From assembly GCA_015657435.1 (NCBI GenBank), contig JADLKH010000001.1:185786-203712 (forward strand): a stretch of 17,927 bases of DNA. Direction: 5' to 3'. Of this stretch, positions 2,318 through 17,927 are shown piece after piece (position 1 is the first letter of the stretch; each line of letters starts with the position of its first letter). The notes under the pieces are model-generated. The model did no database searches and was not told the origin of the DNA. It saw only the letters and a list, made by a program, of their open reading frames with translations. The DNA is from Synergistales bacterium (GTDB lineage: Bacteria > Synergistota > Synergistia > Synergistales > 79-D21). The position numbers and the translations under genes were made by a program.

Positions 2318-2787
2318 ATGACGGGAATGACCATAAGCAGGCTTGCCAAAAAGGCCGACGTTTCCATTGACACGATCAGGTTCTACGAAGGGAGAGGGCT
2401 CATCGCTTCCCCCCTCGAACGGATTCGAACTATCGCCTGTACCCCGAAGACGACGCGGCACGGCTGCGCTTCATCCGGCGGGCCAAGGAACTGGGATTCT
2501 CACTCCTTGAGATCAAGGACTTGATGACCCTGCAAAACGACTCCGGGACCTCAAAAGCGGACGTGAAGCGGCGGACCGAAGATAAGGTCAAGGATATCAA
2601 ACAGAAGATCAAGGACCTTACACGAATACTCGAAACGCTTGAACATCTCGTTGCCGCCTGCGACGGCCACGGGCCGGTCAGCGAATGCCCGATTCTAGAG
2701 GCACTGGCGTTCCCGGATGATAAAGAGCCCGAACATCATCACCATCACGGAATGGGAGGGACTGACCATGAAGGACATGGGACATGA
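2318..2787 (+). pseudogene. MerR-family metal-responsive regulator, apparent single-base frameshift
   Basis: The N-terminal frame gives MTISRLAKKADVSIDTIRF and YEGRGLIA, a MerR winged-helix start. It then loses sense at a run of six C near 2411-2416. Reading one frame over gives TDSNYRLYPEDDAARLRFI and KELGFSLLEIKDLM, the expected second half of the MerR DNA-binding domain, running into the dimerisation helix and the 2521-2787 frame. One added C gives a 156-aa protein. The C-terminus carries ACDGHGPVSECPI, a Cys-x8-Cys metal loop of the MerR type, and a His-rich tail ([15 protein letters not shown]). The start at 2318 has a GGGAGG site. The end overlaps copA by 20 nt, implying coupled translation. 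It likely senses Cu or a thiophilic metal and controls both 20-bp-spacer promoters. Untreated, the sequence yields only a 68-aa truncated product. Confidence 0.8.
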
Positions 2788-5134
2788 AAACCACAAACAT
2801 CACCAGCATGGGGGGAACGCGACCTACACGGACCCCGTATGTGGCATGTCGACGGACGACAAGACAGCTTTCAAGCCTTTGGACTACGAGGGGAAGACCT
2901 ATCACTTCTGCAGCCTTCACTGTCTGGAGAAATTCAAACAAAATCCGGAAGCCTATGTGAAAGGCGAGAATACTGCGAACAATGAAATCGGAGAGGAGAA
3001 GAAACCTGTAACCGAATACACCTGCCCCATGCATCCGGAAGTGGTTCGGGACGGACCAGGAAGTTGCCCCAAGTGCGGTATGGCGCTTGAACCCCGGACG
3101 GTTTCCCTGGAGCAGGAAGAACAAAACCCCGAGTACGAGGATATGCGGAAGCGGTTCATGTTCGGCCTGGTTCTGACCGTTCCACTGGTCCTCATCGCTA
3201 TGCGGGAAATGCTTCCGGGGGGACATCTCATCGAAACAATGGCATCCCCATTTGCGCTCGGCTGGATCGAACTGATCCTCGCCACGCCGGTTGTGCTTTG
3301 GGCCGGATGGCCCTTTTTCGTCAGGGGTGCGCAATCCGTCGTCAATAAGAGCCTGAACATGTTCACCCTTATCAGCCTGGGGGTTTCCGTCGCCTATATC
3401 TACAGCGTCGTGGGGATCCTATTCCCAAAGGTATTTCCCATGGGGATGCAGGGGGCCGACGGGACCGTTCATGTCTATTTTGAGGCGGCGGCTGTCATCG
3501 TCACACTGATCCTGCTGGGACAGGTTCTGGAACTGCGTGCCCGTAGCCAGACAGGAACGGCGATCAAGGCCCTGCTGGGCCTCGCACCCAAGACAGCCAG
3601 GAAGCTCAACGCCGATGGCAGCGAAATCGACATTCCCCTGGGGGAGGTTCAAAAGGGGGATCGACTTCGGATCCGCCCGGGAGAGAAGGTCCCTACCGAT
3701 GGTGTGGTGCTGGAGGGAAGCAGTTCGATCGACGAATCCATGATCACCGGTGAGCCGATTCCCGTATCCAAACAGGTGGGAGACAAAGTCACGGGGGCGA
3801 CAATCAACGGCACGGGGAGCTTGATTATGTCGGCAGAGAGGGTCGGAAGCGAGACACTTCTTTCCCAGATTGTAAAAATGGTTGCCGAGGCCCAGCGCAG
3901 CCGGGCGCCCATCCAAAAACTCGCCGACACGGTCTCGGGCTATTTCGTTCCGGTTGTCATGGCCATTGCCCTTGCGGCTTTTGGAATCTGGGTCACGGTA
4001 GGCCCCGAACCGCGATTGGCCTACGCCCTCATCGCGGCCGTCTCGGTTTTGATCATCGCCTGCCCTTGCGCCCTCGGACTCGCGACGCCTCTGTCCATCA
4101 TGGTGGCCACCGGCAAGGGAGCGACCATGGGAGTTCTTTTCAGAAATGCAGAAATGATTGAAACCCTCCGGAAGGTCGATACTCTTGTGGTGGACAAGAC
4201 GGGAACCCTGACGCTTGGGAAGCCAAGTCTAGCCACCGTGATCGCAGTTCCTGGACTTGACGAGAACGAGTTGCTCGCTTTGGCGGCGTCCCTTGAGAAG
4301 GGAAGCGAACATCCGCTTGCGTCAGCCATCGTATCCGGGGCTCTCGATCGGGGGATACCCCTCGCGGAAGCCGGGAAATTCAACTCGCATACCGGAAAAG
4401 GCGTTTCCGGAGAAATTCAGGGACGCTCCGTCATACTGGGAAACCAGAACCTGATGGATGAATACAAGGTCGACACAAGCATGCTGGATACCGAAGCGAA
4501 AAACATGAGGGAAGAAGCCCAGACGGTGATGTTTGTGGCTGTCGAAGGCAAAGCCGCGGGACTTCTCACAGTATCCGACCCGATCAAGCCAAGCACCCCG
4601 AAGGCCATTGAACAACTCCACAGGGAAGGCATGCGCATCGTCATGCTGACGGGAGACAGCCAAGTTACGGCCGAAGCGGTCGCTCGCAAACTGGGAATCG
4701 ACGAGGTGGTGGCCGGAGTATTGCCGGAAGGAAAGGCCGCAGCCGTCCTGCGTTTCCAGAAGGAGGGACATGTTGTCGCCATGGCGGGCGACGGAATCAA
4801 CGACGCGCCGGCTCTAGCCCAGGCACAGATTGGCATCGCCATGGGTACCGGCACCGACGTCGCCATGGAAAGTGCGGGCGTGACCCTGGTCAAGGGCGAC
4901 CTGACGGGTATCGTCCGGGCGCACAGGATTTCCCGGGCAACCATGCGCAACATCAAACAGAACCTTTTCTTCGCCTTTGTCTACAACGCACTCGGAGTCC
5001 CTATCGCCGCGGGAGTCCTCTACCCGGTTTTCGGAATTCTGCTCAGCCCGATGATCGCTGCTGCGGCTATGAGCGCAAGTTCCATCTCGGTCGTCGCCAA
5101 TGCCCTCCGGCTGAGGTCGCAGGAGATCAGGTGA
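2768..5134 (+). CDS. copA: Cu(I)-type P1B-1 ATPase with YHS and heavy-metal-binding domains
   Basis: This 788-aa inner-membrane pump would export Cu(I) using ATP. A His-rich N-terminus precedes a YHS domain (residues about 20-65, with DPVCGM and FCSLHC) and a heavy-metal-binding domain (YTCPMHPEV at 84 onward; C100 and C103 in CPKCGM). The core has the actuator motif TGEPIPVSK, the transmembrane CPC at 432-434, the phosphorylated Asp in DKTGTLT (D476), the HP motif SEHPLA near 513 and GDGINDAPA at 674. The last helices carry YN and MSASS, the Cu(I)-site signature. The start at ATG 2768 is preferred over 2717 because a GGGAGGG site lies just upstream. It overlaps the end of merR and probably shares its MerR-type promoter. 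An intrinsic terminator follows. YHS-type N-termini instead of ferredoxin-like CXXC domains are common in environmental CopA proteins. Confidence 0.95.
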
Positions 5135-5276: not shown

Positions 5277-5888
5277 TTGAATCTTGGAAACGGGTTACTG
5301 CTGCTCCTTGTCGGAGGATGCTTTTTCCTGATGATGAAGCGAGGCGGTGGCTGCTGCGGTGGTGGCCATACAAAGTCTAATTCCTGCCACCGAGGCGGGA
5401 ATACCTCATCAGGTAAGGCGTTGTTGGGCGAACAAGGTCTCACTCCGGTAGAACACGCTTCTGCAAAGCCCGAACCGTACAAGGGGAGCTCGAACAAGGG
5501 AGCCTTAGCCTCGTTGGCCTTAGCTGCAGTCCTGGCCCTGGGAACATATTCCCCTGTGTGGGCCAACGTTGCACATCATCCCGAGCAAACCCCCACACTG
5601 CCACAGGCGGAATCGATAATCCAGCCACAGGAAACGGCGAACATCGCTGTTCCTGGCGAAGAGATCAGCAAAGAGAAATGCGGGGCTCAAGCAGCCACCG
5701 GAAAGAAGGAGATGCTGAAGCCGGTGATACAGAAAGTCGGCGAAATGAATTCTATGAGCGGGGCGAGCCCCATGATGGGGACAATGATGAACCGGAAGCA
5801 GGGTATGGAAACCATGATGGATATGTGCAAAATAACGCAGCAGGCTGAGATAAGGGCACTGCCCAAACCAAGTCACACTGAAAAATAG
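5277..5888 (+). CDS. Cys/Met-rich membrane protein of the metal regulon, unknown function
   Basis: The product is about 203 aa from a TTG at 5277, which sits well behind a GGGAGGTG site; an in-frame GTG at 5268 lies inside that site. The N-terminus has a hydrophobic segment (GLLLLLVGGCFFLMM) followed by a Cys/Gly cluster (KRGGGCCGGGH and NSCHRGG). A second hydrophobic stretch near residues 77-100 (GALASLALAAVLALGTY) ends in PVWA, resembling a signal or second anchor. The C-terminal third is Met-rich (MNSMSGASPMMGTMMNRKQG, METMMDMCK). The soft ligands suggest Cu(I) or similar metal binding at the membrane. I do not recognise a named family. Its own MerR-type promoter places it in the copA regulon. 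Confidence 0.75.
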   Translation: MNLGNGLLLLLVGGCFFLMMKRGGGCCGGGHTKSNSCHRGGNTSSGKALLGEQGLTPVEHASAKPEPYKGSSNKGALASLALAAVLALGTYSPVWANVAHHPEQTPTLPQAESIIQPQETANIAVPGEEISKEKCGAQAATGKKEMLKPVIQKVGEMNSMSGASPMMGTMMNRKQGMETMMDMCKITQQAEIRALPKPSHTEK

Positions 5889-5940
5889 CCAGGGTGATTG
5901 CTCGAGTCGGTGTTTTTTTAACCAAACAACAAACAACAAA

Positions 5941-6037
5941 AAGAGGACCTCCCCATCCAGGGAGGTCCTCTTCATCGTTCAGTTCGAAGCCGGTCGTTCC
6001 GGCTTCTCTCCTAGGCGTTCCGCGTCCTATCGAACGA
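5941..6037 (-). terminator. Double-hairpin terminator module, copy B
   Basis: A perfect 13-bp inverted repeat (5941-5953 with 5960-5972, 6-nt loop) is followed on the minus strand by a T-rich run (TTTGTTGTTTG). A second hairpin at 5986-6006 pairs GAAGCCGG with CCGGCTTC around a 5-nt loop. TCCTATCGAACGA at 6025-6037 includes the stop of the 6027-6188 gene. The long hairpin lies between converging genes and may stop transcription from both sides, with the better T tract for leftward transcription. The same set occurs at 991-1088. Confidence 0.7.
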
Positions 6038-6188
6038 CTTTGCCGTTGACGATTTCGCGAAAGCCCAGTTCCGTGCGAAGCATGACCCGTTCTACGAATA
6101 GCCCGTTGCTCTGCTCCGCCGCTTCGAAACAACCTTCGGGCGTGAACCAGAAGGGCGCTCCGCTGACGTAAACCAGTTTGTTCCCCAT
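6027..6188 (-). CDS. Small hypothetical protein (53 aa)
   Basis: This short frame starts at ATG 6188 after an AAGGA site about 8 nt upstream and ends at 6027. The product is a compact 53-aa protein beginning MGNKLVYVSGAPFWFTPEG and ending REIVNGKVVR. It has no signal peptide, membrane segment or Cys pair. I do not recognise the family. Support comes from the ribosome-binding site, sensible codon composition and the terminator directly after its stop. Its last codons are part of the repeated module; copy A preserves a related ending (GKIVR then stop) without the rest of the gene, as if an earlier copy had been lost. Confidence 0.55.
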   Translation of the reverse strand: MGNKLVYVSGAPFWFTPEGCFEAAEQSNGLFVERVMLRTELGFREIVNGKVVR

Positions 6189-6189
6189 G

Positions 6190-6863
6190 CGTTTTTTCCT
6201 TGCCTTTCCTTGCAGATTCCGAACGTGACGGCGCGCAATGCAGGATGTTTCGGTTCCATCGTGATTGTGTGGAAGGGATGCGCCGCCAAAACCTCAAAAT
6301 CCTCCCGAAGGGTGAAGGATTTGCCTTCCTCCGTTCTCACACTCCAGCCATATACTTATTCAATGCACTCAACTACATAGATTTTTACCCCCCTAGCTCA
6401 TTTCGCGGGTACACGCGCGCGACCCAACCGGCGCTGCCAGAACGGTTTGCTTTGGACTTTTCACCCCCCCTACCCCCTGTGGAGCACCTGGAAGATCGTC
6501 TGACGCTCCTCAAAAGCCTCGGAAGGCATGGGAACAGGGGCTTTAAAGGCTGTGTCAACTAACAGTATACTTTTTATCTGACCAATGGGTTTCCAAAGAT
6601 TAACCGAGACAAATGCCCGGACTTTTTGCCTCTCTCCACCCGACAGAGCACAACTCTTTGCAACAACCGGGCTTATGCCCTCTTTCTCACCACACATTTT
6701 TCTCGAATCAGCCATATCTATCTTGTGTATCATTCGACCTTATCTCGGATAACTCACTGTCCTTGCGGGTTTGTGCCCTCACGCAAAGAGCAGAAAGGGG
6801 AGAAAAATCAGCGGTTTTCTATAATATTAAAAACAATGGCACTTTTATTAACTGTTTCGCGGT
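6190..6863. other. About 670 bp without a convincing gene, at the island/element border
   Basis: Short open frames exist on both strands (for example 6470-6733 minus, 87 aa), but none has a clear ribosome-binding site or recognisable sequence. The part from about 6550 to 6860 is visibly more AT-rich than its neighbours. No tRNA cloverleaf is apparent. Because the integrase ends at 6864 and metal genes lie on the other side, an attachment site could fall here, but with one end only the core repeat cannot be identified. Confidence 0.4.
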
Positions 6864-7454
6864 TCAATAGTCTAAGTTAATATAAGCTTCATCTATTTCA
6901 TCCTGAGTGAACCCGATATAGGCCAAAGTAACGGCCGGAGACGCGTGATTGAAGATCTGCTGCAGCTTCGTGATGTCGAACCCCTTCCGATAGTTGTGAT
7001 ACCCGAAGGTTTTCCTCAGGGTATGGGTCCCTATCCGTTCCTGGATTCCCGCCTCCCGGGCGGCCCTGTTCAGGATGTGGTAGGCCTGGCAGCGCTGGAT
7101 CGCCTTTGGCCTGCCCTCCTTGTCCTTCTTCCTGGAGACGAAGAGCGGATCCTCAAGGCTTCCGGTTCCACCACGAATCAGTTGCTTCAGGGCGAACCGC
7201 GCGGTCTTGTTCAGGACGATGATCTTCGCCTTGCCCGTCTTCATCTCCCTCAAAGACAGACTTTCCCGGATGACGAGATTCTTCCCTTCCGCTTTGGCCA
7301 CGTCCTGAACTCTCAGCTTCAGCAGGTCCGAGATCCGAAGGCCCGTGTAGATCCCCAGGACAAAAAGGGTGTAGTCCCGCAGGTTTCTGCTTTTCAGCAC
7401 TTCCTTCACCCGGGTGATATCGACCCTGCTTCTCAAGGGCTGTACGAACTCCAT
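6864..7454 (-). CDS. int: Short tyrosine recombinase / phage integrase (catalytic domain)
   Basis: The 196-aa protein is close to a bare catalytic domain of the phage integrase family. The catalytic set is visible: Arg in TGLRISD (R40), a candidate Lys near 72-76, H144 and R147 in HTLRKTF, H170 in FNHASP and the nucleophile Y179 in LAYIGF. The core-binding domain of about 90-150 residues found in lambda-type integrases is missing, yet the start is well supported by GGAGGTG just before ATG 7454. Short enzymes of this kind are seen in anaerobe phages and mobile elements and may act as integrase or invertase. A terminator at 7483-7510 cuts it off from the upstream leftward operon, so its promoter must lie in the short gap at 7455-7482 or transcription must read through. 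Confidence 0.9.
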   Translation of the reverse strand: MEFVQPLRSRVDITRVKEVLKSRNLRDYTLFVLGIYTGLRISDLLKLRVQDVAKAEGKNLVIRESLSLREMKTGKAKIIVLNKTARFALKQLIRGGTGSLEDPLFVSRKKDKEGRPKAIQRCQAYHILNRAAREAGIQERIGTHTLRKTFGYHNYRKGFDITKLQQIFNHASPAVTLAYIGFTQDEIDEAYINLDY

Positions 7455-8952: not shown

Positions 8953-9309
8953 CTATTCGGTTTCCTGGGCATCCTTCATGGCCCCCAGGTAGACGATCTT
9001 TCCGGCCAGGACCTCCGTCACGCTCTTTCGGTTTCCCCTGGAATCCTCGAAGATACGGGTCGTGAGGCGTCCCTCCACCAGGAGGGCGCTGCCCTTCCTG
9101 AGGTAGACCTCGGCGTTTTCGGCATCCCGCCCCTTTAGGAGGCAGGGAACGAAGTCGCTTTCGCTTTTGACCTTCCCCCCTTTGTCCTTCCAGGTCCGAA
9201 TGGCTTCCACCACGATCCGAGCGAGCATGAGCCCCTGAGGGTTTCTCCTCACGTCCGGGTTTTCGGACAAGGTTCCCATGACCGTGCTCCGGTTATAGCC
9301 CTGTTTCAT
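8953..9309 (-). CDS. ssb: Single-stranded DNA-binding protein (OB fold), no acidic tail
   Basis: This 118-aa protein is an SSB-type OB fold. It shows the start YNRSTVMGTLSENPDVR, the central F.PC...GRDAENAEVYLRKGS and VEGRL block, and the closing GKIVYLGA. It would coat single-stranded DNA during replication of the element. The ATG at 9309 is chosen because it gives the family's normal N-terminus; the longer frame to 9408 is not SSB-like. It ends soon after the OB fold in KDAQETE. The Gly/Pro-rich linker and the acidic tip ending in Pro-Phe, which normally recruits partner proteins, are absent. The gene just upstream, the DnaC-like loader, ends in such a tip. Confidence 0.92.
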   Translation of the reverse strand: MKQGYNRSTVMGTLSENPDVRRNPQGLMLARIVVEAIRTWKDKGGKVKSESDFVPCLLKGRDAENAEVYLRKGSALLVEGRLTTRIFEDSRGNRKSVTEVLAGKIVYLGAMKDAQETE

Positions 9310-9322
9310 GTCCTCGCCCCCC

Positions 9323-10345
9323 CTAGAACGGGATATCCGCCATGACGACCTGGCGGGCGGAGTCTTTCGCTTTGCCGTTTCCCCGGGACCCTTCCGAAAT
9401 CGGGGCATCGGACCGGATGAACCGGTAGTCCTCCGCCGAGATCCCGCACCAGGTCCCCATCTCCCCCAGGCGGGAGACGATCCTCTCCCCCTGCTCCCCG
9501 AGCTTCTTCAGCAGGTCCATGGGGGACGGGGAGTTCGTCGTCACGATCGTCTGAAGCCGGTGCAGGTAGCGATGGTTCACGATCATGTAAAGCCGTTCTC
9601 CCACCCAGTCCGTCAGGCGCTCGGCCCCCAGGTCGTCTAGGGCGAGAAACTCGGATTTCTTTACCGCATCCATGGCCTCGCTCCCCTTGCCCGTGGAGAT
9701 GGCCTTCCTCAGGTCATCCAGGAGCTCCGGGACCGGGATGAACAGGGCGGGTCGGCCCGAGGCGATCCGGGAATTCACCATCCCCGCGGCCAGGTGGGTC
9801 TTTCCCACTCCGCTTCCCCCGGCGAAGACGAGGCTGTTGCCGTCCCCCAGGGCCGCTAGGGCCATCCCCTTGGCCTTCAGGATGTCCGAAGACAACCCCA
9901 CCGTCCGGTAGGTCTCGAAGGTGCACCCCCGGAGGCGCTCCGGGAGTCGGGCACTCCTCAGGGCCCGTTCGGCTTCGGCCTGGGTATCGACCGAACTTCT
10001 AACCCCGCACTTGCTCCAGCGAACGACATAGGTTCTTCCCCCTTCACCGTAAGGTTCGCAGAAGGCTCCGGGGCGAAACCCCCTGTTGGGACAGTTCTTC
10101 ACTCCCCTGCAGGTGAGGTGGCAGTTTTCCGCCTCCGCGGCCAGGAGAAAGTCCCGGAGGGGAGAATGAAGCTCCCGGGCTTCCGCGTCCGGCCAGATGC
10201 TTCGAACCGCCTTCAGAGCCCGCTCCTCCATGCCCGGCAGGGTTGCCAGGCGTTTTCTGGCCTCCGCCAGGGCCGGGATCCGCCCCATGACGGTTCCGAT
10301 GTCCTCTATCCTCCGTTCGCCCAAGCCTCGAGCTGCTTCAGCCAT
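9323..10345 (-). CDS. dnaC: DnaC/IstB-like helicase loader with Cys cluster and SSB-like C-terminal tip
   Basis: The 340-aa AAA+ protein has Walker A GGSGVGKT (176-183), Walker B FLALDD (233-238), a sensor-1-like TTN (269-271) and a likely Arg finger at R292 in RIVSRLGEMG. This is the DnaC/DnaI/IstB pattern for loading the replicative helicase onto origin DNA. The N-terminal region has six Cys, five of them at 75, 79, 85, 96 and 113, suggesting a zinc-bound module. The last residues, VVMADIPF, match the acidic Pro-Phe tip of SSB proteins. The ATG at 10345 overlaps the end of the initiator gene by 40 nt and has an AGGAGG site about 11 nt upstream; a later Met at residue 20 is possible. Context (initiator, loader, ssb) makes a replication role more likely than transposition. 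Confidence 0.9.
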   Translation of the reverse strand: MAEAARGLGERRIEDIGTVMGRIPALAEARKRLATLPGMEERALKAVRSIWPDAEARELHSPLRDFLLAAEAENCHLTCRGVKNCPNRGFRPGAFCEPYGEGGRTYVVRWSKCGVRSSVDTQAEAERALRSARLPERLRGCTFETYRTVGLSSDILKAKGMALAALGDGNSLVFAGGSGVGKTHLAAGMVNSRIASGRPALFIPVPELLDDLRKAISTGKGSEAMDAVKKSEFLALDDLGAERLTDWVGERLYMIVNHRYLHRLQTIVTTNSPSPMDLLKKLGEQGERIVSRLGEMGTWCGISAEDYRFIRSDAPISEGSRGNGKAKDSARQVVMADIPF

Positions 10346-11298
10346 TTCGGATCGTTCCTCCTTCCTCCCGCGGTTGTTTCCCTCTCCTCCTGCTTCGCCT
10401 TCCCTGACTTCTGGTTTTTCAAGACATCCCAGAGGTAGTGCCAGGTGAGCTCGCTCGGGTCCCGGGGATGGAACCCAGGCCGTTTCGGGTTTTTGAACCG
10501 TTCCAGGGACTTCGAGATCTCCGCCTGCACCCGGGAGGGGATATGGAGTTTCTCCAGGGCTTCGATCCGGGCCAGTTCCGATTCCGAGATCCCTGTCCGT
10601 CCGGTCTTGAGCAAGAACAGGTCGTAGGTTTCCCGGAATGCCGAGGGAACGCTTTCCCGGGTCACCTCGGGTTTTTCCTGATCAGGCTTTTCCCTAGGGT
10701 GCAGGGTATGGGTATCGTAATCCCGCTTCAGTGGTCTTTGGGTGTCCTGTTCCCGGGGTCCTTGACCTTCTTCCCTGTCGCCTTCCGCGGCCGAAGCCGC
10801 CGGATACAACGTATCCGGTATCTTTTCCTGTTCTTTGTCTTTAGGTTCATCTGGTAAGACTTGGGGTGACTGACAGTCACCCCCCCGGTGACCACCAGTC
10901 ACCCCTCCGGCCAACTGATGGGTGACTGACAGACACCCCTCCCCCTGGGGAGTGTTTTCCCCCTTACCTCGAAAGCCCACGAGGGTGTAGAGGTTGGCCA
11001 GCTGCCTGGAGGTCCCGGGGCGGTAGGCGGCGGATTTCCGGATGACCCGGAGGTTTTCCAGTCTCTGCAGGGCCCTTTGCACCTGGCGTTCGGAGCATCC
11101 TGCACTTTCGGCGATCGTCCAGACCGAGGGGAAGCACTCTCCTTCCCGGGAGGCGTATGAGCACAGAACGACATAGACCATGCGTTCGTAGATCGAGAGG
11201 TCCGACTTCAACAGGGCCATCTCTACCCGGAAGTCCTGGAAGCGCCGACGATCCTCGATCCGGATTTGGTTGGGATGATTCGAACTGCGTTCAGTCAT
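10306..11298 (-). CDS. Phage replication initiator-like protein (O-like, N-terminal winged HTH)
   Basis: The 330-aa protein begins with an HTH-36-type winged-helix domain (about residues 25-115): LSIYERMVYVVLCSYA, CFPSVWTIAESAGCSERQVQ and LENLRVIRKSA are typical. A long polar linker follows (about 115-220, rich in Gly, Glu, Pro and Gln). The C-terminal part is helical and ends WLKQLEAWANGG. The layout of an N-terminal origin-binding domain plus a C-terminal loader-interacting domain matches lambda O-type initiators, and a DnaC-like loader follows directly. Three 17-bp palindromes lie inside the linker-coding part, as expected if the origin is inside the initiator gene. The start overlaps the MazG-like gene by 8 nt. 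Confidence 0.8.
   Translation of the reverse strand: MTERSSNHPNQIRIEDRRRFQDFRVEMALLKSDLSIYERMVYVVLCSYASREGECFPSVWTIAESAGCSERQVQRALQRLENLRVIRKSAAYRPGTSRQLANLYTLVGFRGKGENTPQGEGCLSVTHQLAGGVTGGHRGGDCQSPQVLPDEPKDKEQEKIPDTLYPAASAAEGDREEGQGPREQDTQRPLKRDYDTHTLHPREKPDQEKPEVTRESVPSAFRETYDLFLLKTGRTGISESELARIEALEKLHIPSRVQAEISKSLERFKNPKRPGFHPRDPSELTWHYLWDVLKNQKSGKAKQEERETTAGGRRNDPKWLKQLEAWANGG
10863..10938. repeat. Cluster of three 17-bp palindromes inside the initiator gene, candidate origin
   Basis: Sites are centred at 10873 (GGTGACTGACAGTCACC, perfect around a central base), 10895 (GGTGACCACCAGTCACC) and 10929 (GGTGACTGACAGACACC). Centre spacings are 22 and 34 bp, close to whole helical turns. About 50 bp to the left, a further inverted repeat CCGGATAC-AAC-GTATCCGG lies at 10800-10818, and the stretch 10819-10860 between them is less GC-rich. 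This fits iterons with a melting region. Confidence 0.65.
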
Positions 11299-11697: not shown

Positions 11698-12453
11698 CTA
11701 CACGGCGAGCCGGTCGGCCAGGACCCGGGCGATGAGATCCCGCCCCCTGGGGGTGACCAGGGTCTTGCAGTAGGACCTTTGCCGGTCCTCACCCAGGTCG
11801 ATGACGACCCGCCGCACCCGGAAGTGTCCCGACTCGATGTATCGCTGCATGGGCACCCAGGATCCGTCCAGGCGGTAGAGGACCTTTCTCCTGGCCAGAA
11901 GCTCGAAGAGTTTCCGGGGACCGATACCGAACCTCGACATCTCCTTGGCGGCAGCCTGGATAGACATCTCGCTTCCCTCACTGCAGGTGGCGTCCCAGGC
12001 CAGGGCCTTGGGGGCGAGCCGTTCATTCTGTTCTTCAAGATTTGCCCGCTCCTCCTCGAGCTTTGCGGCGAGACGCAGGGCTTCCGGCAGGGTCCTGGGG
12101 ATCCGGAAATTCTGGATCTCCCGCTCCATGCGGTTGAATTCCGCGATATAGGCCTCCTTGAAGCGCATTGCCTTCTCTCCCGTGTACCCCATGGCCAGGA
12201 GAGTGAACCCATCCCGGCTCAGGAGGACCTCTTCCCTCTGGGAGAGGATGGGGATCCCGCTTGGGGCCATCTTGTATACGAAGTCAAAATTGACGCGGCC
12301 GAATCTCTCGCTGCATTTTCGGGCAAGCTCGTCGACATCCTTGAGGATCCGGTCATGGGGTTTCCCGAACGCCCTGGCCACGTGGCGACTGGAGACCACC
12401 ACGCGCCCTTCCCTCACCACCAGTCCCAATGCGTTTTCCGCTTCTTCTCTCAT
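11698..12453 (-). CDS. rha: Phage Rha-family regulatory protein with KilA-C domain (antirepressor-like)
   Basis: The 251-aa protein has an N-terminal pRha domain (about residues 8-112): SSRHVARAFGKPHDRILKDV, then FGRVNFDFVY, LLSRDGFTLLAMGYTGEKA and FKEAYIAEFNRME. A helical coiled linker (about 121-147) is followed by a KilA-C/ANT domain (about 160-251): MSIQAAAKEMSRFGIGPRKL, LYRLDGSWVPMQRYIESGHF and a VTPRGRD close. Rha and KilA-C proteins are phage regulators, often antirepressors or lysogeny switches. ATG 12453 has GGAGG at 7 nt. It is divergent from the toxin-antitoxin pair, and the 92-bp gap should hold promoters for both. Confidence 0.9.
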   Translation of the reverse strand: MREEAENALGLVVREGRVVVSSRHVARAFGKPHDRILKDVDELARKCSERFGRVNFDFVYKMAPSGIPILSQREEVLLSRDGFTLLAMGYTGEKAMRFKEAYIAEFNRMEREIQNFRIPRTLPEALRLAAKLEEERANLEEQNERLAPKALAWDATCSEGSEMSIQAAAKEMSRFGIGPRKLFELLARRKVLYRLDGSWVPMQRYIESGHFRVRRVVIDLGEDRQRSYCKTLVTPRGRDLIARVLADRLAV

Positions 12454-12496
12454 GTGCCTTCCTCCCTGTTCAAAAAAGTTGCCTGGATTTCCGTGA

Positions 12497-12530
12497 TATA
12501 ATTCCCTTGAAGGTGGGTTGCACCCACTTT
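12497..12530 (+). promoter_or_regulatory. Extended -10 promoter and operator palindrome of the TA module
   Basis: A consensus TATAAT (12497-12502) preceded by TGA gives an extended -10. Eight bases later is an inverted repeat, GTGGGT-TGC-ACCCAC (12513-12527), with matching A/T flanks, overlapping the likely start of transcription. The AGGAGGTGA ribosome-binding site follows. This suits autorepression by the AbrB-type antitoxin. Confidence 0.6.
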
Positions 12531-12545
12531 CAGGAGGTGAAACCC

Positions 12546-12821
12546 ATGCCAACAAAAACCGTCCGTTCCACGATGCACGTCGACGACAAGGGGCGTCTGA
12601 CCTTGTCCGCAGATCTCCGAAAGAAACTCGGGATCGGCCCGGGAGATGTCATCTTCTGCAAAGGAAAAGAAGGCCGATTCATCTGCGCCAAGGCCATCAA
12701 CCCCCTGGATGCCGTCCGCCCTTCTCTTGCCGAACGCCGTAAAATCCGGGAAGGACTTGCCGACCTCAAAGCCGGCAGAGTGACGCCCTGGGAGAAGGCC
12801 AAGGAAGAACTCGGACTATGA
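12546..12821 (+). CDS. AbrB/SpoVT-type antitoxin
   Basis: The 91-aa protein opens with a SpoVT-AbrB swapped-hairpin domain: STMHVDDKGRLTLSADLRKK, LGIGPGDVIFC and GRFICAKA (about residues 8-52). The tail (about 53-91) is helical and charged, as in antitoxins whose C-terminus wraps the toxin. ATG 12546 has a near-perfect AGGAGGTGA site. Its stop overlaps the toxin start (ATGA), so translation is coupled. The likely operator is the palindrome at 12513-12527. It is on the opposite strand to the surrounding phage genes, suggesting insertion of a moron. Confidence 0.88.
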   Translation: MPTKTVRSTMHVDDKGRLTLSADLRKKLGIGPGDVIFCKGKEGRFICAKAINPLDAVRPSLAERRKIREGLADLKAGRVTPWEKAKEELGL

Positions 12822-13090
12822 ACCTCGACCTGACCGACGCTGCCAAGAGGGACATCAGGAAGATCCAGGACAAAAACGCGAGAAAGGCCATCGGGAAAGC
12901 CCTGGATGACTTCGCCACCGATCCCCGTTCGACTCCGCTCAGGAAGCTCGAGGGATACAAGAATCTTTGGCGTCTCTCCCTCGACAACTGGCGCATGGTT
13001 CTCCTCATCCGCTGGTCCGAGGATCATGCCTTCGTGGTTTGCGTCGCAGACCGCAAGGAGATCTACCAGATCGTCGGCCGAAGGTTCTGA
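12818..13090 (+). CDS. RelE/ParE-family toxin
   Basis: The 90-aa basic protein has the RelE/ParE pattern: helix LTDAAKRDIRKIQDKNARKAI, then LRKLEGYKNLWRLSLDNWRM with the typical LW.....WR turn, and a closing strand VVCVADRKEIY. RelE members cut mRNA on ribosomes and ParE members poison gyrase; the sequence does not decide between them. It pairs with the AbrB-type antitoxin, a combination less common than with RHH or Xre antitoxins. It ends 35 bp from the stop of the converging methylase gene. Confidence 0.88.
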   Translation: MNLDLTDAAKRDIRKIQDKNARKAIGKALDDFATDPRSTPLRKLEGYKNLWRLSLDNWRMVLLIRWSEDHAFVVCVADRKEIYQIVGRRF

Positions 13091-13125: not shown

Positions 13126-13968
13126 TCATTCCCCTATCCCCTCCATCGCATCTACCAGAGAACCAATCCCTCTTGATGCCGCCCGTTCGTTCATCCACAG
13201 GCACTCGACCTTCGGGCAGGCTCGGTCTGCATAGGCCCTGTGGTCGACCCTGACCCAGCCCTGGTAAAGCTCCTCATAAAGCGGGCTGTCGTATCCCGAG
13301 ACCAGGACCGCTCCCTTCGCCTCCTTCAGCACCTCTGCCAGGAGAACGTGCTCCTCCGTGCTCATCTCGTAGGGCCCGTAGGCGTTCCTGCCGCTAGACT
13401 TCGAGCGGATCCCCCCGAGGTAGGGCGGGTCAGCGTAGATGGCCGTATCAGGGCTGTCCCCTCGGGCGATGGCTTCCCTCGCTTCCCCCTGCTCGATGAA
13501 GACTCCCCGGAGGCGATCCGCCCAAAGCTCCACCTGAAGCCACACGTCTTTCCATTCGTCGGCCGAGGAGGTTCTGTCCTCTCTCAGGCCCCGTCTCCAG
13601 CCGGAGCGCTTCCCTCCCGTGCAAGCCCCGGTGCTCCCGTGGCTCTGGTGTCCCAGGACGATGAGCCGTCTTGCATCTTCCAGGGGGTCTTCCGCTTCTT
13701 CCCGGCAGTCCAGGTATTCCCTCTGGGCGCAGGGGGTGTAGCGCAGAAGTCTCCCCAGTTCCTCCGGCAGTTCCCGGATGGCCCGAAAGGCGCTCGTGAT
13801 CCTTCCGTAGGCGTCGTTAAGGACCTCCACCTTCGACCGGGGCTTCCTCAGAAGCACCGATGCCGCCCCGCAGTACGGTTCCAGGTAGATTTTGTGAGGC
13901 GGCAGGTGGGACAGGATCCAGGGGGCGAGCCGCCATTTGCCTCCGTGCCATCGGGCGATAGGGCGCAT
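13126..13968 (-). CDS. dam: DNA adenine methylase, D12 class (Dam-like)
   Basis: The 280-aa protein has the N-terminal RWHGGKWRLAPWI block, the AdoMet motif YLEPYCGAASVLL (28-40) and the catalytic DPPY at 180-183, in the order of the Dam/DpnM class. It would methylate N6 of adenine, probably in a short site such as GATC. No partner restriction enzyme is seen, so it is an orphan phage methylase that could protect DNA or alter gene control. Compared with Dam, the usual EPFxGxG is EPYCGAA, a mild deviation. ATG 13968 has GGAGG at 9 nt, and the preceding gene ends 3 nt upstream. Confidence 0.9.
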   Translation of the reverse strand: MRPIARWHGGKWRLAPWILSHLPPHKIYLEPYCGAASVLLRKPRSKVEVLNDAYGRITSAFRAIRELPEELGRLLRYTPCAQREYLDCREEAEDPLEDARRLIVLGHQSHGSTGACTGGKRSGWRRGLREDRTSSADEWKDVWLQVELWADRLRGVFIEQGEAREAIARGDSPDTAIYADPPYLGGIRSKSSGRNAYGPYEMSTEEHVLLAEVLKEAKGAVLVSGYDSPLYEELYQGWVRVDHRAYADRACPKVECLWMNERAASRGIGSLVDAMEGIGE

Positions 13969-15087: not shown

Positions 15088-15663
15088 TCACAGTCCTTCC
15101 GCAACATTCAGTACCTTTGCCGGGTACCATTTCGCCCCGCCCGAGTAGGCTTCCAGGGCCCGGGACAGATTCCCATACCGGTCAAGGTAGCCCCTCAAGA
15201 TCCACACTCCGGCCAGGATGGACCGCCTCGGTTCGAACAGGTCTTCCCGGGTAAAGATCTCGGGATGGTTCAGGATGAGATCGTTCTTCCAGACCGGCCA
15301 GTTCACCTGGGTGAGGCCCAGGCAGCCCTTGTTAGTCGCTTTCGGCTTTGCCCGGGATTCGGTATGGATGAGACCGGCGAGGATGGATTCGGGAAGCTTG
15401 TACCGATCCGCAGCTTCCTGGACGGCATAGGCCATATAGAGGGCGGTTTCCGGATCCAGGGCGGGGTTCGTCTTGAGGAAGAACCGCTTCAGGCTTTCCG
15501 CACCCTGGGTCTGTTCCAATTCCAGGGAGGCGGCCATAACCGCGGAGGCGACGAAGGCTTCCTGTTTCATCTGGCGCCATTCCGTGACGGCCATACCGAT
15601 TCCCGACCCGAAGGTGACTCCCGAGAGGAACACGAAGAGGGCCAGTTTCCCGTGGCGCTTCAT
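15088..15663 (-). CDS. Lytic transglycosylase (SLT fold) with N-terminal membrane anchor
   Basis: The 191-aa protein begins MKRHGKLALFVFLSGVTFGS, a signal anchor. The catalytic domain (about residues 84-191) has ESILAGLIHTESRAKPKATN with the catalytic Glu in HTES, GCLGLTQVNWPVW and a late ALEAYSGG. This is the Slt/VirB1 pattern that cleaves peptidoglycan. Its ATG overlaps the stop of the terminase-like gene (ATGA), so translation is coupled. Such enzymes serve in phage DNA entry, lysis or DNA transfer; the early operon position fits none of these neatly. No other lysis gene is visible nearby. Confidence 0.88.
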   Translation of the reverse strand: MKRHGKLALFVFLSGVTFGSGIGMAVTEWRQMKQEAFVASAVMAASLELEQTQGAESLKRFFLKTNPALDPETALYMAYAVQEAADRYKLPESILAGLIHTESRAKPKATNKGCLGLTQVNWPVWKNDLILNHPEIFTREDLFEPRRSILAGVWILRGYLDRYGNLSRALEAYSGGAKWYPAKVLNVAEGL

Positions 15664-16631
15664 GATCCGGGCTCCTCCTCACCCACCCTGGAGGCCAGGG
15701 CCCGAAAGAGGGCAAGAAGCCCATCGATCCGGTCGGGGCTTTTCTCCATGGAGGGTCGCAAATTCCCGAAGCCGTCTTTTTCCACTGCGAGGTTGTCCGC
15801 CATCCATTCCATGAGGGGGTTGTCGTCGTGGGTGAGGCTTTTGGACCTGAGAAGGAGGGGCAGTTCCTTCAGCACCGGGGACAGGAAGGAGAAGCCCTGC
15901 CAGACTCCGACCAACTTGAAGCCGTTTTTGCGGAGGCCTTCGGTGAGGCCGATGGCGTTCCAGGGGTCATGGGCGATCCACAAAACGGGGTGGGATTCGG
16001 CAAATTCCCGGATCTCCCGGCAGATCCGGGAAGGTCCGTGACCCCCCCGGGGTGACGGTGAGCCAACCCCCTTTGCGCAGGCGCCATAGAGGGTTCCTTT
16101 CGTGCCAGGTTCCTTGAGTGCGTCCTCGGGGATCCAGAACCGGGAAAGCAGGTGGAGATGGCCGTCTTCCAACTGAAAGAGGAATACGGCGGCGGTGAGG
16201 TCGGATACGCTGGTGGAGGAAACACCGACGATGCAGGGCCGTTCGCCCAGGTCGAAGGGGTCGCTATCCACGGCGCAGGTTTTCCATTCGGAGCGGGAAA
16301 AGAGCGGGGGTTCCTGAAGCGCACCCGACTGGGGACGATGGGCGACCCTGACCTGCGGCATGGCTTTGAGCAGTCCTTTGATCTGGTCCAGGAGGAAGGA
16401 GACCTTGACGGCCCACTCCTGGAAGTCCTCATTACCCTGCAGGGACAATTTGAGGGTGCGGGTCTCGGAGGTAGATTCTGGACGTGAAGCGAATCCTCTC
16501 ATGCAGGGGGTTTCGATCTTTCCCCGGATCTCCTCCTGCAGGGCGTCCAGGTCGACGGGGCGAATATGGACAGTGCTGCTTTCGACTCCGCATTCAATCC
16601 TTCCGCATGTTTTTTCCGGCTTCTTCTCCAT
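15660..16631 (-). CDS. Stand-alone terminase-large-subunit-like nuclease domain, one catalytic Asp missing
   Basis: The 323-aa protein matches the C-terminal half of HK97/Terminase_1-type large subunits. FLFQLEDGHLHLLSRFWIPE is at about 150-169. IAHDPWNA has D222 as a catalytic Asp. VWQGFSFLSPVLKEL, DDNPLMEWMADNLAVEKDGF and EKSPDRIDGLLAL (D303 as a catalytic Asp) follow. Before it lies the pre-nuclease linker (SEWKTCAVDSDPFDLGERPC). There is no Walker A or B; the first 110 residues are a different, partly helical region with no recognised domain. The first catalytic Asp, normally in a G-x-D-L-S motif, aligns with Ser138 (VGVSSTSVSDLT), so the enzyme may be inactive unless D144 substitutes. 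ATG 16631 is chosen over upstream TTG codons. It overlaps the transglycosylase start by 4 nt. Confidence 0.75.
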   Translation of the reverse strand: MEKKPEKTCGRIECGVESSTVHIRPVDLDALQEEIRGKIETPCMRGFASRPESTSETRTLKLSLQGNEDFQEWAVKVSFLLDQIKGLLKAMPQVRVAHRPQSGALQEPPLFSRSEWKTCAVDSDPFDLGERPCIVGVSSTSVSDLTAAVFLFQLEDGHLHLLSRFWIPEDALKEPGTKGTLYGACAKGVGSPSPRGGHGPSRICREIREFAESHPVLWIAHDPWNAIGLTEGLRKNGFKLVGVWQGFSFLSPVLKELPLLLRSKSLTHDDNPLMEWMADNLAVEKDGFGNLRPSMEKSPDRIDGLLALFRALASRVGEEEPGS

Positions 16632-16857: not shown

Positions 16858-17085
16858 CTAGATCCCCTCCTCACCTAGCCTTTGGACGAGTTCCCGTATG
16901 TCTTCCGCTCTCCAAACTGTGATGTTCGGACCGAATTTGATCCCTTTCGGAGCCTTCCCTGTCCTAACCCACTTCCACCAGGTCGGCTTCTTTATGGGAA
17001 TAAACCGGAGTACATCCTTAATCCGAAGAAATCCAGTTTCAGGCAGGGTCAGGATCTGGATTTCAACTTGGGCTTCTGCCTGCAT
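16858..17085 (-). CDS. AlpA/excisionase-like HTH regulator
   Basis: The 75-aa protein has the MerR/AlpA-type winged helix: GFLRIKDVLRFIPIKKPTWW, KWVRTGKAPKGIKFGPNIT and VWRAEDIRELVQRL. The turn WWKWVRTGKAPKG and the following VWR wing are typical of AlpA/Xis proteins of satellites and prophages, which activate integrase or aid excision. ATG 17085 is chosen because GGAGGTG lies 6 nt upstream; the frame extends to 17100 without a better start. It lies 4 nt downstream of a small ORF. Confidence 0.8.
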   Translation of the reverse strand: MQAEAQVEIQILTLPETGFLRIKDVLRFIPIKKPTWWKWVRTGKAPKGIKFGPNITVWRAEDIRELVQRLGEEGI

Positions 17086-17089
17086 TTCT

Positions 17090-17236
17090 TCACCTCCCAA
17101 CTACCCTTAAGAGCTGTTTCCCCTCGTCGATCATTCTCTCAATCCGATCGAGGAACCGTACCGTTCTCTCCTCGTCCGCTCTGCCGTCCTGAAGATCCGC
17201 CGCGAAGCCGAGGACTTCGACCGGCGATCCAGTCAT
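17090..17236 (-). CDS. Small ORF (48 aa) upstream of the AlpA-like gene
   Basis: ATG 17236 opens a frame for MTGSPVEVLGFAADLQDGRA, then DEERTVRFLDRIERMIDEGK and a basic end. It is predicted to be mostly helical, with heptad-like spacing. Its stop overlaps the ribosome-binding region of the AlpA-like gene. No clear ribosome-binding site precedes it, which lowers confidence. No family is recognised. The repressor remnant ends 26 nt upstream. Confidence 0.4.
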   Translation of the reverse strand: MTGSPVEVLGFAADLQDGRADEERTVRFLDRIERMIDEGKQLLRVVGR

Positions 17237-17262: not shown

Positions 17263-17528
17263 CTAGCCCGCAGAGGGCTGAAACACCTCGAGCGCTTGTC
17301 GGCGACGCGTCGGGGCCTTCGTAGGGTTTTCGACTAAGGCTTTGAGTAGAGTTCCAGGCGTCAAATGTAAAACCGACTCAAGTGCCGCGATATTTTGAGC
17401 CTCGGGTTGGTACTTGTCAGACTCCCACCCCCAATGCTTTGTCTAGAAGCTTTTACTTTTTCGGCCAATTGCTCTTGAGTTAAGCCAAGCCCAATTCTGC
17501 ACTTCTTTACGATCTCCCCTATTGTCAT
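17263..17528 (-). pseudogene. Xre/CI-type repressor, apparent single-base frameshift
   Basis: ATG 17528 encodes MTIGEIVKKCRIGLGLTQEQ and LAEKVKASRQSI, the first two-thirds of an Xre HTH. At a run of five G (17428-17432) the frame shifts. The neighbouring frame gives WESDKYQPEAQNIAALESVL, the expected end of the HTH, and continues with HLTPGTLLKALVENP to a stop at 17263. Adding one G restores the canonical RQSI-xx-WES and an 88-aa protein (266 nt is 3n+2). It is divergent from a second HTH repressor at 17683. If the shift is real, lysogeny control would rest on the other repressor. Confidence 0.7.
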
Positions 17529-17539
17529 ATCTCCACCCT

Positions 17540-17663
17540 CTATATGTAAATTTGAACATGCCATATATACACCTTTCATGGCTATATGTCAAATAAGCTA
17601 TGCATATATGCAAAACATGCTCGTCTTGATTCCCTATACAGTTAGTGTAAAGTTGTTTTTACA
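17540..17663. promoter_or_regulatory. Divergent operator/promoter region between two repressor genes
   Basis: This AT-rich stretch holds repeated elements: CTATATGTAAA (from 17540), GCTATATGTCAAAT (from 17581) and the palindrome TGCATATATGCA (17601-17612), followed by AAAA. A perfect inverted repeat TGTAAA-GTTGTT-TTTACA lies at 17646-17663, just upstream of the plus-strand repressor. A candidate plus promoter is TTGATT (17626-17631) with TAAAGT (17648-17653), 16 bp apart and overlapping that repeat. At least two operator types seem present, one per repressor. Confidence 0.5.
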
Positions 17664-17682: not shown

Positions 17683-17927
17683 ATGGGGATTGGCGAGCGT
17701 ATTAAGAAGTTGCGCAAAAGCAAAGGGTGGACTCAAAATGAACTTGCCGAGAAGATCGGCAGGTCAAGGCAAAGCATATTGAACTGGGAGAAAGATAAAG
17801 CCATCCCAGATTCTGATGTGTTGTCCATTATTGCTAGCCTTTTTGAATGTTCCATAGACGCTCTATTAACTGATGAGCAGGGACCCCTCAAACGGAAGGA
17901 TGTTAATGTCGTCAGCGTCCCGGTACT
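17683..17927 (+). CDS. Xre-family repressor, LexA/CI-like (truncated by window edge)
   Basis: ATG 17683 follows GGAGGG at about 6 nt and stays open to the window end (81 codons). Residues 1-65 form a clear Xre HTH: MGIGERIKKLRKSKGWTQNE, LAEKIGRSRQSILNWEKDKA and VLSIIASLFECSIDALL. After a short linker, VVSVPV appears, as in the segment before the cleavage site of S24 peptidase repressors, so this may be an SOS-cleavable CI-like repressor. It points away from the leftward early genes and its start region carries candidate operators. Confidence 0.85.
   Translation, partial: MGIGERIKKLRKSKGWTQNELAEKIGRSRQSILNWEKDKAIPDSDVLSIIASLFECSIDALLTDEQGPLKRKDVNVVSVPV

Follow-up and report, generated by a model that had tools for sequence, protein, structure and literature searches.

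A stand-alone terminase nuclease domain

The 17,927-nucleotide stretch of a Synergistales bacterium genome analysed here (the window; GCA_015657435.1, contig JADLKH010000001.1) carries on its minus strand a 323-aa open reading frame (ORF) starting with ATG, 15660..16631, which resembles the nuclease half of a phage large terminase (TerL). The gene lies in the early module of a phage-like element, directly downstream of an AlpA-type regulator (16858..17100, minus strand; PF05930, 22.9 bits for a cut-off of 21) and ahead of an SLT transglycosylase (15088..15663, minus strand; PF01464, 6.1e-14), whose N-terminus looks membrane-anchored and whose start overlaps the stop of the nuclease-like gene (ATGA). 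The window belongs to contig C4 of a 2.68-Mb assembly (G000; 85.6% complete, 3.7% contaminated), and the nearest named relatives of this genome are the Synergistaceae metagenome-assembled genomes UBA5827 and UBA6083.

A first-pass annotation made from the letters alone had reported this ORF together with motifs typical of the terminase C-terminal half, and both were recovered in the translation. The Pfam family TerL_nuclease (PF20441) matches residues 107-313 (15693..16313, minus strand) at 1.4e-18 with 67.5 bits, for a curated cut-off of 24, and the matched region has the RNase H-like terminase fold that marks this domain, i.e. an RNase H/RuvC-like fold. Among the PHROG families, phrog_2699 gave the best match (2.5e-39), followed by phrog_9 (2.5e-35), and the relatives comprise P0003-P0008, P0017, P0018, P0021 and P0022. 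Judged by these profiles, the product is a TerL nuclease domain on its own, which is related to the C-terminal half of HK97-type large terminases. The flanks of the domain are less well defined: structure models of the N-terminal part are of low confidence (the first ~137 residues of P0003 and the first 124 of P0022), a search with the N-terminal region of a clade B copy (see below) returned P0022 and P0021 as sole matches, and the last dozen or so residues of a prophage TerL are missing from the stand-alone proteins (alignment A4). The open frame itself reaches 16778, beyond the ATG of the ORF at 16631. Since a DNA alignment shows that the extension up to 16778 is disrupted in the related genome G002, where one base is inserted and the start is lacking, and since P0006 begins at the same start as the 323-aa ORF, we retained the start at 16631.

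The first-pass annotation had also stated that the protein comes without a motor, which was borne out: the sole match to the TerL ATPase family PF03354 in the 85.6%-complete assembly (C4:254943-255464) is part of another gene ~50 kb away, which encodes an ordinary TerL (556 aa) in a prophage that appears complete. Searching the genus with this full TerL matched only the nuclease part and no ATPase half at the stand-alone loci of G000, G002 and G003, and the same search at the stand-alone copy of G180 likewise gave the nuclease part only. The protein has neither the Walker-motif ATPase domain nor the place in a packaging operon beside terS that characterise a functional TerL. An immune decoy, in which a TerL look-alike would occupy terminase-recognising host sensors such as Avs proteins, seems scarcely probable to us, as the protein lacks the ATPase half, which would be an evident target for such sensors.

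A profile built on the stand-alone proteins found matches in 21 of the order's 180 genomes. Three of these 21, all from the window's genus (three of the five genomes there), have copies recognised as stand-alone; the matches in the other 18 genomes lie in frames of 422-604 aa, besides three short frames (G175, 131 aa; G144, 164 aa; G013, 128 aa). Protein searches added P0003-P0007 and P0021-P0022. In a tree of the 104 rows left after removal of duplicates and of short and low-scoring domains, the stand-alone proteins form one group with a support of 91/93, comprising a clade A, to which the window copy belongs, and a clade B, and from this topology a single origin is likely. G002 contains both kinds, clade A on C17 and clade B on the short contig C1, as well as an intact TerL on C26.

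Active-site residues and purifying selection

For HK97 TerL, D302, D388 and D471 are described as the catalytic centre, and K463 as placed to bridge D302 and D471 (PMC9410871). We derived residue equivalences from an alignment to HK97 TerL (PDB 6z6d) and from family alignments. By these alignments, the place of D302 is taken by Ser138 (codon 16218..16220) and that of K463, with its possible salt bridges to D302 and D471, by Met295 (15747..15749), while D388 and D471 are kept as Asp222 (15966..15968) and Asp303 (15723..15725; all codons on the minus strand); at the latter position clade B has Thr or Val.

The family alignment holds 133 of the 135 matches with a score of at least 120, near-duplicates included (113 different sequences), and its ten stand-alone rows count neither the window's own database entry (P0002) nor the frameshifted G003 copy (P0008), which likewise reads GVSSTS. 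All ten stand-alone proteins, the window's included, have lost D302 (seven Ser, three Ala) and K463 (six Met, two Gln, one Leu, one Trp); D388 is kept in all ten and D471 in seven, so that two of the three catalytic acids remain in clade A and D388 alone in clade B. Among the 123 other domains, D302 is present in 118 (one Glu, four gaps), D388 and D471 in all 123, and the K463 position is filled by 113 Lys and 10 Arg. Ser138 therefore indeed stands where the first-pass annotation had missed the usual first Asp, and both the loss of this Asp and the absence of the ATPase half are conserved across independent elements. We also considered D144 as a replacement, which would have left all three acids intact. 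This residue aligns with a second Asp (HK97 308) present in 119 of the 123 other domains, nearly always alongside D302; as ordinary TerL domains carry both, D144 does not replace D302 and was rejected as catalytic substitute.

Taken together, the alignments and structure models characterise the protein as a predicted pseudonuclease that has lost one or two catalytic acids and the active-site lysine with retention of the fold. RNase H-fold enzymes sometimes tolerate active-site variation, and with two of the three acids left in clade A, the protein could still be a nuclease with a rearranged active site or with another cutting task. Nevertheless, none of the stand-alone proteins compared has D302 or its lysine partner and clade B keeps only D388, which makes continued cleavage quite improbable. 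A conserved dead fold rather argues for binding than for cutting. Such binding might be unrelated to packaging, if the RuvC-like fold served on branched DNA, without cutting, as a structural DNA-binding protein for replication or recombination; this we consider improbable, if less so than cleavage.

The nuclease domain is kept by purifying selection, with dN/dS values, given here without control genes (transglycosylase, true TerL), of 0.25 between the window and G002 (a garbled stretch excluded; Fisher p 5e-10), 0.16 between G002 and G003 up to a frameshift (p 4e-10) and 0.21 between two clade B copies (p 1e-12). The N-terminal part is looser, with values of 0.72 (not significant) and 0.53. 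The garbled stretch of the window copy (16031..16075, minus strand) contains three single-base deletions relative to both relatives (DNA alignment A3; net -3), which within 45 bp put ~15 residues ('GVGSPSPRGGHGPS', where the relatives read like 'WLTVTPGGVTDLP') out of frame before the frame is restored. In the G003 copy, a 5-bp gap causes a frameshift that breaks the last ~55 residues. Homopolymer sequencing error is a possible source of these indels.

The same indels could point to a decayed or frameshift-split terminase, as the first-pass annotation had suggested as an alternative, and nuclease-only entries named TerL do exist (Leuconostoc phage CHB, 264 aa). However, G002, P0003-P0007 and three clade B proteins show the stand-alone architecture in intact form, only the nuclease part was matched at the loci of G000, G002, G003 and G180, and the domain is under purifying selection in an early-module position away from terS. 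We therefore rejected decay or splitting as very unlikely.

The element and its related prophage

Upstream of the AlpA-type regulator, the window element encodes a Cro/XRE-like regulator (17361..17579, minus strand; phrog_8, 4.5e-6) and, divergently, the start of a CI-like repressor (17689..17927, plus strand) that is cut by the window end and combines a helix-turn-helix domain with an S24 peptidase (HTH_3 and Peptidase_S24 at L024:7475-8122). Just past this repressor lies an Mrr-type restriction endonuclease (L024:8674-9687, corresponding to G000:C4:204673-205686; PF04471, 2.2e-11), possibly a defence cargo. Downstream of the transglycosylase, the minus strand continues with a D12-class DNA adenine methyltransferase (13126..13968; PF02086, 4.7e-18), a Rha/KilAC antirepressor (11698..12555; PF03374, 2.8e-23, and PF09669, 1.1e-21), a replication initiation protein (10306..11298; phrog_270, 2.5e-18), a DnaC/IstB-type helicase loader (9323..10345; PF01695, 5.7e-16), a single-strand DNA-binding protein (8953..9408; PF00436, 4.5e-21) and a short tyrosine recombinase of 196 aa (6864..7454; PF00589, 1.7e-27, and phrog_216, 1.9e-60), a relative of which adjoins HNH-terS in the G000 prophage. 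Within this minus-strand module, positions 12429-13090 of the plus strand give a weak match to an MraZ-like antitoxin, below the Pfam cut-off, together with a ParE toxin.

Between 6381 and ~17275, the window is colinear, in a series of matching blocks, with the early half of the G000 prophage (recombinase, HTH, helicase loader, replication initiator, antirepressor, transglycosylase, AlpA and Cro region). At most ~60 bp separate the prophage AlpA (L026:8313-8600) from the transglycosylase region downstream of it, and since the two are nearly contiguous there, the pseudonuclease represents an extra gene of the window element. The prophage further has genes for portal, head protease, major head and tape measure proteins as well as ORFs resembling TerS and HNH, the G180 homologues of which were identified as such. 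No HNH, terS, terL, head or tail gene was found among the window ORFs searched, not every one of which was searched in both Pfam and PHROG. The presence of AlpA is a trait of satellites resembling the phage-inducible chromosomal islands (PICIs) of Gram-negative bacteria, and is not diagnostic, as the G000 prophage has AlpA as well.

At its left end, the element shares ~100 bp (6381..6480) with the HNH/terS junction of prophages, which we read, from its position and conservation, as a cos-like site. To G000:C4:257107-257204 it is 77% identical, with no further significant match in that genome, and to the G002 prophage 83%, compared with 68-73% and 70-72%, respectively, for the coding blocks. 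Next to it lie a 3' half fragment of tRNA-Cys (6310..6331, minus strand; aligned with intact tRNA-Cys loci) and, at 5931..6307, a host sequence that is found elsewhere just downstream of tRNA-Cys and is repeated in the genome, an arrangement that looks like an attachment end; the left end of the G003 element is the same. A locus of G003 (L030:12980-13320) shows the tRNA-Cys 3' half beside no more than the first half of the cos-like site, which breaks off inside. In G000, tRNA-Cys looks like an integration hot spot (window 5931-6331): at least two intact tRNA-Cys genes have the same downstream sequence (C1:709685-709758 and C2:391644-391717), two further loci combine the downstream sequence with the 3' half only, and the repeat also occurs in many incomplete copies on C1, C2 and C4. 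Between or just outside two such repeats (985-1094 and 5931-6307) lie two ORFs resembling, by motif, heavy-metal P-type ATPases (46-708 and 2717-5134), which may form a metal-resistance island inserted at this hot spot too.

The right ends of the G002 and G003 elements are marked by a large serine recombinase (by Pfam in G002, by sequence in G003) that was not found in G000. It abuts half of a host gene, which we take from its motifs to be a nucleoside deaminase. Because this gene is whole in G000 (on C2), the element limits differ between the genomes. The loci concerned are L027:9051-10682, L029:5704-7365 and L168:1002-1275, and in G003 the terminal part of contig C3 matches the other half of the host gene, next to a second related copy. 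On the right side in G000, the CI-like repressor and the Mrr-like restriction gene are followed by host-type PAS/GAF/HD genes. A comparison of window positions 5700-6500 with C4:203900-208000 gave 11 bp as the best among the first 20 matches, and Rfam gave no match at gathering score within the window. The window element may be either a satellite or a remnant. The lack of detected late genes, alpA, the cos-like site and the apparently complete related prophage without the gene in the same genome are supporting evidence for a satellite-type setting.

Possible packaging interference and known systems

Clade B places the gene in a different context. In the 38.9-kb phage contig IMGVR_UViG_3300050333_000168, a clade B pseudonuclease occupies the same early slot, and the contig also encodes a TerL 96% identical to that of the G000 prophage, besides TerS, HNH, tape measure, endolysin and integrase. 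From this near-complete phage and from G002 it follows that the gene is neither confined to elements without late genes nor incompatible with a working TerL, and a satellite-only gene was rejected as an explanation. The arrangement would suit a regulatory partner of the phage's own terminase, i.e. an inactive subunit mixing into or capping the TerL ring or delaying cleavage, as would the 42% identity between a prophage TerL and the G002 clade A protein over 209 nuclease-domain residues. On the other side, the related G000 prophage has a TerL and no pseudonuclease of its own, so that its TerL does not need one, and no full TerL was found close to the clade A elements in G000 and G003 or anywhere in the 56%-complete G003 assembly. 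We therefore regard an own-terminase regulator as rather unlikely, and as the next candidate after packaging interference or redirection.

It is this interference or redirection, by an early-made pseudonuclease that binds, on which we place most weight, as a tentative preference at somewhat under an even chance. From its location in the early module between alpA and the transglycosylase gene, the protein would be made early. The HK97 nuclease domains form a ring directly below the portal, and a free dead domain could take that place or join the TerL ring. With the portal or the TerL/TerS/cos complex thus occupied, packaging by a co-resident or superinfecting phage might be blocked or redirected, and the beneficiary would be an element that has the same cos-like site and in which no head, tail or working terminase genes were found. 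A clade B phage could use the protein against competitors or hold back its own terminase until late.

Several points weigh against this picture. The clade B copy and an intact TerL occur in one phage, so that the protein cannot simply poison all terminases of this kind. The C-terminal residues of the prophage TerL that the stand-alone proteins lack may hold the contacts in question, and two of the three genomic clade A copies carry indels (those of the window and of G003). Both stand-alone clades sit on long branches, which may attract each other in the tree. As to satellite status, the right side of the window element yielded no tRNA within C4:196000-235999 and, for the ORFs searched there, no integrase. 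Of the first-pass proposal that an inactive, free nuclease domain interferes with a helper phage, the free domain with its conserved loss of the catalytic Asp stood, and a strictly satellite-borne weapon did not, given the clade B phage with its own TerL. The fuller version, in which a weapon or switch made from TerL itself, an early, motorless and cleavage-dead domain, docks to the terminase or the portal and selects the DNA to be packaged, is plausible to us, though with the balance leaning further against it.

In comparison with HK97-type TerL (PF20441; PDB 6z6d), the pseudonuclease shares the fold, the sequence profile and, in clade A, the equivalents of D388 and D471, but lacks the ATPase domain, D302 and K463, and in clade B also D471, and it differs in its early-module position. 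A C-terminal tail comparable to that of the prophage TerL is absent. Nuclease-only chains named terminase (Leuconostoc phage CHB, 264 aa, by its BFVD name; phrog_2699) likewise consist of the nuclease part alone and are comparable by name and profile only. The vestigial C-terminal nuclease of phi29 gp16 is described as having lost catalysis and kept DNA binding (PMC7672431); in that account, this packaging-motor nuclease fold is still fused to the ATPase as part of the motor, whereas the pseudonuclease is a separate protein carried besides or without a TerL.

Satellites are known to redirect or block the assembly of their helpers with mimics of TerS and of the capsid protein. Rpp of Escherichia coli PICIs, a TerS mimic from cos-type satellites with alpA, was shown to bind TerS, and it blocks packaging of the helper and promotes that of the island (PMC6739421); the pseudonuclease would instead mimic the TerL nuclease, with the portal or terminase as a putative partner. 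SaPIbov5 Ccm, a satellite-encoded capsid-protein homologue affecting capsid size (PMC5052747), is similar in being a homologue of a late phage protein that does not have the function of the latter. Among the titles listed from the open-licence literature, which leaves most subscription journals outside, there was no TerL nuclease mimic that is free or satellite-borne, and no dead TerL nuclease in free form. Packaging-protein mimics and vestigial terminase nucleases are kinds already known, and a free dead TerL nuclease is a variant of these. The packaging-interference proteins for which we found descriptions target the small terminase or the capsid. A conserved free dead TerL nuclease would suggest an additional target, be it the large terminase, the portal or cos DNA, and could serve as a natural probe for the docking of the nuclease ring on the portal. 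With catalysis apparently lost in two clades and the fold strongly conserved, a non-catalytic role is directly testable, and, if the weapon or switch reading is true, the protein would be to TerL what the mimic Rpp is to TerS and Ccm to the capsid protein.
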